DNA from: Amyelois transitella
Taxonomy: Eukaryota; Arthropoda; Insecta; Lepidoptera; Pyralidae
Direction of reading: 5' to 3'
Length of the DNA: 64,000 bases
Assembly: GCF_032362555.1 (NCBI RefSeq)
Contig: NC_083523.1
Coordinates: 2,517,501 to 2,581,500 of the forward strand
Under the pieces are notes generated by a model that ran no database searches, had not been told where the DNA came from, and was given only the letters and a program-made list of their open reading frames with translations. Positions 14,103 through 15,437 of this stretch are shown in pieces (within the stretch, counting starts at the first letter, position 1; the number at the start of each line of letters is the position of its first letter). A program made the translations under genes and the position numbers.

Positions 14103-14505
14103 ATTAGTGGTCTTAAAAGATAAAAGCACATGATAAAACCGATTAATCGGCGTTTGTTTATCCTATTACGAAATATTTTTAAAAATTTCAGCCCTGGAAC
14201 AAGTTTCGGCAAAGAAAACACACACAAACAAGACCACGTCAGAACTTCAACTGTCAGTCAAAGGTTATATTATCTGTCAGCTGTTAGTCAATTCATGTAA
14301 AGGCTGTCAACGTCAACTGTTACAACCTATTTTAAAAACTATAATCGAGGCCATGATGTTTATATGATTTCTAGTCATTGGAAAATTAATGGTTTTAAAA
14401 ATTTTATGGCAATACCTACTCAATTTAGTTAATTAAACAAAACCCCGTAAATGCCGATCCGCATTGGACCAATGAGTAAATGGCTAAATTAGAGCGAAAG
14501 TTGTC

Positions 14506-14630
14506 TTAAGAAATAGTCATATAAAAACGATGCACATACTGAGAAAATTCATTTAAACTTACTTCTTTTTTTCAGCTTGATGTCTGTTGTACGTTCCTAA
14601 AGTCATTTTGTTTTAGAGTGGAATGTGGGT
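14506..14630 (-). repeat. Perfect inverted copy of ZCCHC10 exon 1 region
   Basis: These 125 bases are the exact reverse complement of 15313-15437, with no mismatch found on reading both arms. The copied segment holds ZCCHC10 5' UTR, the start ATG (minus strand, 14606-14604), all 44 coding bases of exon 1, the GTAAGT donor (at 14562) and about 57 bases of intron 1. Because intron sequence is included, it did not come from spliced mRNA. It ends 5 bases before a truncated LINE tail, and both lie inside one 6-bp target-site duplication. Confidence 0.95.
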
Positions 14631-14635
14631 GAATT

Positions 14636-14951
14636 ATAGAAAAGGGTATGTTAAGATGGTTCGGTCATGTGGAGAGGATGAAAGCAGGTTGACTAAGCAG
14701 ATATACAAGGAGAGTGTGGAGGGAAAGGTCGGAGTGGGAAGACCTAGACGAACGTATCTTGATCAAATTAAGGACGTCCTGGTAAAGGGTCAGGTCAAAA
14801 GTACCCGAAACCGCCGAGCTTGTATGAAGAGAGTTATGAATGTGGACGAAGCGAAAGAAGTATGCAGAGATCGTGGCAAGTGGAAAGAGGTAGTCTCTGC
14901 CTACCCCTCCGGGAAAGAGGCGTGATTTTATGTATGTATGTATGTATGTAT
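14636..14951 (+). mobile_element. 5'-truncated LINE tail (same family as 54094-55708)
   Basis: This matches 55389-55708 essentially base for base, except that 4 bases are missing near 14677 (GATGAAAGC against GATGAATGAAAGC). It ends in five TATG-type units. The open frame encodes only the LINE C-terminus (GRPRRTYLDQI, AYPSGKEA). The flanking GTTGTC occurs at 14500-14505, left of the inverted ZCCHC10 copy, and again at 14952-14957 after the tail, so both pieces appear to have been inserted together. Confidence 0.9.
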
Positions 14952-15312
14952 GTTGTCTGGCAAACCGAATGATGTCGGACATAAAATGCCGCGGTATTTG
15001 TTACTATATATTAATTTGGAAACGGGTGTTTAATTATAACTAAATTAAGATACCATTTCCATTCAGTTTTATTTTAATTCCGAGCTACTTTTATCCAGGC
15101 CCAGAAATAAATAAACAAAAAAGTTTTGTCAACTGTACTGTCATATGTCAATGTCAATTCAATAAATATTTCTGCTTCATTCATGCCTCGTTCGAGTTTT
15201 CGCTAAACAATTTACCTACTTACTTCGCTCCTCTGTTTGTAATTTTATCATTCGTTTGCAAGCAGGCTTTGTAAGAGCTTCAAATTAAGTGAATTTTATT
15301 GTTTCTAAGTGT

Positions 15313-15437
15313 ACCCACATTCCACTCTAAAACAAAATGACTTTAGGAACGTACAACAGACATCAAGCTGAAAAAAAGAAGTAAGTTTAAATGAATTTTC
15401 TCAGTATGTGCATCGTTTTTATATGACTATTTCTTAA
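15313..15437 (+). repeat. Source arm of the 125-bp inverted duplication
   Basis: This is the genuine ZCCHC10 exon 1 with flanks, and the other arm of the inverted repeat at 14506-14630. The spacer is 682 bp. The two arms could pair in a read-through transcript. Confidence 0.95.

Follow-up and report, generated by a model that had tools for sequence, protein, structure and literature searches.

A truncated LINE joined to an inverted, unspliced copy of an adjacent ZCCHC10-like gene segment in Amyelois transitella

The means by which long interspersed nuclear elements (LINEs) complete the second half of their integration are poorly understood (PMC6895275). The closest described systems include inverted U5 small nuclear RNA (snRNA) sequences, and also U1, U2 and one U6, joined to L1 elements, which were attributed to twin priming on another RNA (PMC4476161). 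Chimeras of antisense RNA or messenger RNA (mRNA) with LINE-1 were also attributed to twin priming in a primate-centred census (PMC13174262), and the term dual priming denotes priming by a second RNA on the top strand (PMC2837659). The 5' junctions of R1 and R2 elements carry non-templated bases, microhomologies or duplicated 28S target sequence (PMC2718515). Here we describe an insertion in a 64,000-nucleotide stretch of the Amyelois transitella genome (NC_083523.1, positions 2,517,501 to 2,581,500; hereafter the window), in which a 5'-truncated LINE is joined to an inverted copy of part of an adjacent zinc-knuckle gene. We presume that this gene is ZCCHC10 and refer to it as ZCCHC10-like; positions are those of the window unless a locus is named. 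The insertion and the source of its inverted arm are laid out as follows:

14500 to 14506, no strand: left target-site duplication GTTGTC(T).
14506 to 14630, minus strand: inverted copy of the ZCCHC10-like 5' untranslated region (UTR), start codon, exon 1, splice donor and 57 nt of intron 1; reverse complement of 15313 to 15437.
14631 to 14635, no strand: junction filler GAATT, 5 nt, neither LINE nor arm.
14636 to 14951, plus strand: 5'-truncated LINE 3' end, with the C-terminus of the reverse transcriptase (RT), a short 3'UTR and a (TATG)n tail.
14952 to 14958, no strand: right target-site duplication GTTGTC(T).
15313 to 15437, plus strand: source of the inverted arm within the ZCCHC10-like gene.

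Alignment bears out the layout proposed in the initial annotation. The arm is identical to the reverse complement of its source at 125/125 positions, and the truncated LINE that begins 5 bp after it matches the 3' end of a longer sibling copy in the same window (55389-55709) at 98.75% identity over 321 aligned columns. As had been claimed, GTTGTC (14500-14505 and 14952-14957) encloses the arm plus the LINE tail, and it can be extended to GTTGTCT (14500-14506 / 14952-14958), the final T being common to duplication and arm. When random left ends were set against the real right flank, a match of at least 6 bases occurred in 0.86% of trials and one of 7 bases in 0.20%. The filler is GAATT, whereas CAGGA stands before ATAGAAAAGG in the native LINE; filler and arm together place 130 nt (125 plus 5) before the focal LINE start. 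GTGAATT is present at 15289 too. Two hallmarks of twin and dual priming are found here: both pieces lie within a single target-site duplication, and the 5' piece is opposite in orientation to the 5'-truncated LINE.

This layout is already known from published chimeras. In the snRNA/L1 chimeras, as in the focal insertion, an inverted RNA segment truncated at its 3' end precedes a LINE truncated at its 5' end; the two are oppositely oriented and share one target-site duplication (PMC4476161). Like the antisense chimeras of the primate-centred census, it holds host RNA sequence antisense to the LINE within the hallmarks of target-primed reverse transcription (TPRT) (PMC13174262). What differs here is the template, which is unspliced sequence of the adjacent gene. 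The snRNA/L1 chimeras contain a small nuclear RNA and mammalian L1 (PMC4476161), and neither is involved in the focal insertion. Compared with the antisense chimeras (PMC13174262), the focal one holds exon 1 plus intron and takes them from the flanking gene. Dual priming was put forward as a speculation, with copying of the poly(A) tail of a second mRNA (PMC2837659), whereas the focal copy is of internal sequence of a neighbouring gene. The 5' junctions of R1 and R2 likewise include filler bases, and some include copied target sequence, but these copies are short (16-27 nt, in R1 rearrangements) and are called duplications, and the excerpted account describes none that is inverted or spans exon and intron (PMC2718515). 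R1 and R2 junctions are a further precedent for loose LINE 5' ends. To judge by titles and the beginnings of abstracts, none of the openly licensed PMC papers listed in our searches describes an adjacent gene as the template of a LINE 5' end.

The LINE family itself is represented in the window by a longer copy:

54033 to 55709, plus strand: sibling LINE copy with a 549-aa RT open reading frame (ORF) and a TATG tail; start codon set mechanically.

The ORF of this copy (54033-55682) matches RVT_1 with an E-value of 1.2e-41. The focal LINE has a short 3'UTR ending in a microsatellite (the TATG array), as expected of an RTE-type LINE; "RTE-type" here and "SINE" (short interspersed nuclear element) below are labels from anatomy alone. 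Lepidopteran RTE retrotransposons have truncated 3' ends of the RT ORF, a short 3'UTR with a simple repeat, and duplications of 6-12 bp (PMC2887409). The focal family resembles them in its truncated 3' ends, short 3'UTR with microsatellite and small duplications; unlike the focal insertion, chimeric 5' ends are not described in the excerpted account of those elements (PMC2887409).

We surveyed target-site duplications at 32 loci fetched around matches to the sibling LINE, with words shorter than 6 outside the search. By our reading of the list, 18/32 loci had trusted duplication candidates that were 7 bp or longer and whose distance to the LINE start ranged from -5 to 23 nt. These duplications measure 7-14 bp as printed, with shared tail or LINE letters counted in, and that of L017 consists partly of tail letters. 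Of the 18 trusted loci, 9 had filler, which measured 1 to 6 nt in seven of them, 15 nt in L037 and 23 nt in L016. We did not count the remaining 14/32 loci. In L025 and L033 the candidates were made of tail or LINE letters, while L012, L014, L019, L023, L027, L029, L032, L035, L038, L040, L041 and L042 had no trusted duplication, lacked the tail, were mis-chained or were cut at the locus edge. L012, mis-chained in this survey, resembles GCTGTGAAA by eye in another. Because sibling copies carry duplications comparable to that of the focal locus, it is well supported that arm and LINE represent one insertion event.

One uncounted locus, L032 (contig C32, 1232-2774), is a young 5'-inverted LINE, in which inverted 54921-54105 is followed by 11 nt and then by sense 54990-55704. 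Since this is the layout of twin priming, its sequence indicates that the family makes 5' inversions that leave filler at the internal join.

An alternative is that the LINE inserted first and that an unrelated inverted duplication later arose at its 5' end. We searched the 265,332 bases of 33 records for inverted repeats of at least 60 bp with 95% identity and less than 3 kb spacing, and found 6. Four of these were multi-copy, occurring 39 to 160 times in the set; the two low-copy repeats were that of the focal insertion and another in L017. The latter is 317 bp long (1511-1827 / 1990-2304), 96.5% identical, with a 162-bp spacer, and lies away from the LINE. Inverted duplications can therefore arise without this LINE alongside, as two separate events would entail. 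Nevertheless, low-copy repeats of this kind are rare, the target-site duplication sits outside both pieces, and the GAATT between arm and LINE is no copy of GTTGTC, all of which makes two events very unlikely.

We also searched the window's own genome (327,366,114 bases, 33 contigs), with counts that are lower bounds. The arm sequence occurred 3 times: in the two focal copies and, as exon sequence, within another locus, L011, on a different contig. As this exon sequence was the arm's sole non-focal match, no pre-existing chimeric source element was found elsewhere in the genome. Perfect inverted repeats are a known failure mode of some libraries, so an assembly or chimeric-read artefact has to be considered. 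An artefact is not expected to make a target duplication around arm plus LINE, and both arms lie on one contig in the genome search, though this merely repeats the assembly. We judge an artefact extremely unlikely.

The source gene was delimited with the help of L011, a retrocopy:

15251 to 16983, plus strand: transcription unit of the ZCCHC10-like gene to the extent that retrocopy L011 samples it; exons to 15380, 15457 to 15633 and from 16235; its actual ends may be farther out.

The spliced ORF (15337-15380, 15457-15633 and from 16235) matches zf-CCHC_3 (PF13917) with an E-value of 6.4e-18, which identifies the product as a zinc-knuckle protein. L011 (contig C25, 310-1633) consists of spliced ZCCHC10-like mRNA (15251-16983) and a short TATG-tailed repeat in the same sense, enclosed by one 6-7 bp duplication and with 2 nt of filler. 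The ZCCHC10-like gene has thus been transcribed, and L011 probably represents a template switch in trans. The joining of this mRNA to a TATG-tailed repeat shows that ZCCHC10-like RNA was captured by machinery using that tail. From the extent of the retrocopy, the sampled transcript begins at or upstream of 15251. The arm spans from ~60 nt inside this transcript into intron 1 (15381-15456), which it retains unspliced; it is thus internal to the sampled transcript. The end of the arm as a transcription start is unsupported, as L011 reaches ~60 nt further upstream, though 15313 could be a minor start.

The initial annotation had proposed one chimeric retro-insertion with a nearby template, and the duplication, the orientation and the local source all support this. 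It had offered nearby genomic DNA or an antisense RNA as the template. A local template stands, while an antisense RNA would serve only if the first complementary DNA (cDNA) strand of the LINE had switched template. If instead priming took place at the second cut end, as twin priming has it, ordinary sense pre-mRNA would be the template, and no special transcript would be needed. Twin priming on a second RNA gives the layout seen here: the piece from the neighbouring gene runs antisense to the LINE, and the 3' part of the transcript is missing from it.

Our preferred reading, which we think has about an even chance of being correct, is a single TPRT event in which the top-strand end was extended on the nearby ZCCHC10-like sense strand, likeliest a nascent pre-mRNA; that is, twin or dual priming in cis. 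A bottom-strand nick would prime synthesis on the RNA of the RTE-type LINE, and the LINE would be 5'-truncated because cDNA synthesis halted at 14636. The top-strand end, ...GTTGTC(T)-3', would be extended on the ZCCHC10-like sense strand from 15437 back to 15313. This second template would most likely be nascent unspliced pre-mRNA, kept beside the cut by RNA polymerase II, and both new strands would be joined with five extra bases. We infer the use of RNA rather than DNA, as well as the order of these steps. Since the template was unspliced and came from a gene ~356 bp away, a tethered nascent transcript or local DNA is likelier than a free transcript acting in trans, which would be a coincidence. 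The wider claim, that a LINE RT can use an adjacent gene's nascent unspliced transcript as second-end template and so write an inverted exon 1 and donor upstream in one step, is tentative, and we place it a little below an even chance.

The same single insertion could have used a DNA template. In one version the LINE cDNA end would fold back, within the resected right flank, onto the strand to which it belongs; in another, 125 bp of local DNA would be copied by an end-joining polymerase. Joining to the left end would follow in either case. Fold-back on the same strand yields an inverted local copy automatically, introns included. In addition, TAGAAA occurs inside the LINE start right after the filler and again, in near-register (1 nt off), just past the source of the arm. 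At random positions such a near-register match arises in 1.2%, 1.8% and 3.7% of cases at allowed offsets of 1, 2 and 20, a post hoc calculation. The match fits annealing of the cDNA end to local DNA, and it fits annealing of two cDNAs equally. Conversely, the bases at the joint mismatch local DNA (3/10 without gaps), so that the extended end would be mispaired, and 125 nt is long for the templated inserts of end joining. A DNA template is quite possible but on the whole doubtful, and we narrowly prefer nascent RNA.

Several observations weigh against the RNA-templated reading or the event underlying it. The sequence holds no mark that would separate an RNA from a DNA template, and local DNA would explain the locality and the intron equally well. 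The copy ends ~60 nt short of the retrocopy's 5' end and therefore shows no run-off at the cap. Immediate microhomology at the left joint amounts to 1 nt only. Automatic duplication finders are split on the focal locus: one ranks GTTGTCT first, tied with a 7-mer 978 nt off, and longest-match rules chose other words of equal or greater length (TGATGTC, AAATGCCG) away from the arm's edge. A target duplication around L032 was looked for and none was found. Finally, the focal chimera is a single event. Pairing at the joint is not decisive: the primer end, with the T at 14506 as its 3' base, pairs with the template at 7/10 positions (one wobble, 3' base included), which ~6% of gene positions equal. 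For the snRNA/L1 chimeras, complementarity between RNA and insertion site has been invoked (PMC4476161).

A scan of 176 listed LINE/SINE tails, which was noisy and skipped copies near record ends without tallying them separately, gave no second clear inverted local copy at a 5' end. It flagged 8 of the 176 copies; for the focal copy it counted 29 inverted words. Going by printed offsets only, the remaining 7 looked like duplications, either target or tandem (L033, L038), like short palindromes (window 59993, L027), like direct repeats (L020, window 56186) or, at window 46504, like one inverted 20-mer. The scan's duplication finder reported a word of at least 7 within 300 bases for 107 copies, with gaps up to 293, and missed GTTGTCT at the focal locus. 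Because of this noise we took no filler statistics from it.

The initial annotation had also called the event recent, as the arms are without differences. Zero differences in 125 bp give a 95% upper bound of ~4.1 million generations, assuming a rate of 2.9e-9 per site and generation, and gene conversion between the arms could mask a greater age. Given this bound and possible conversion, "recent" is only loosely supported.

A local second template would show what is within reach of the open end during LINE integration. It would also leave a signature that can be counted, namely LINE 5' ends carrying neighbour sequence that is inverted and unspliced, and this could be tested for a preference for the sense strand in transcribed DNA. 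Moreover, such an event shows how, in a single step, long inverted repeats can form and a first exon and its donor can be copied to a site beside promoters.

Contig C32 carries 7 of the 8 matches of more than 580 bases, the eighth being the window's own copy; this concentration might be that expected of a repeat-rich sex chromosome. The end of the arm's source coincides with the second A of TTAAT (15434-15438). By eye this is one of two candidate branch-point motifs in intron 1, and we regard the match as a weak coincidence. Upstream of the insertion, a minus-strand ORF of 49 aa (13953-14102) has an N terminus that by eye resembles a signal peptide. This ORF could be exon 1 of a divergently transcribed gene, and the insertion may then lie within a shared promoter region.
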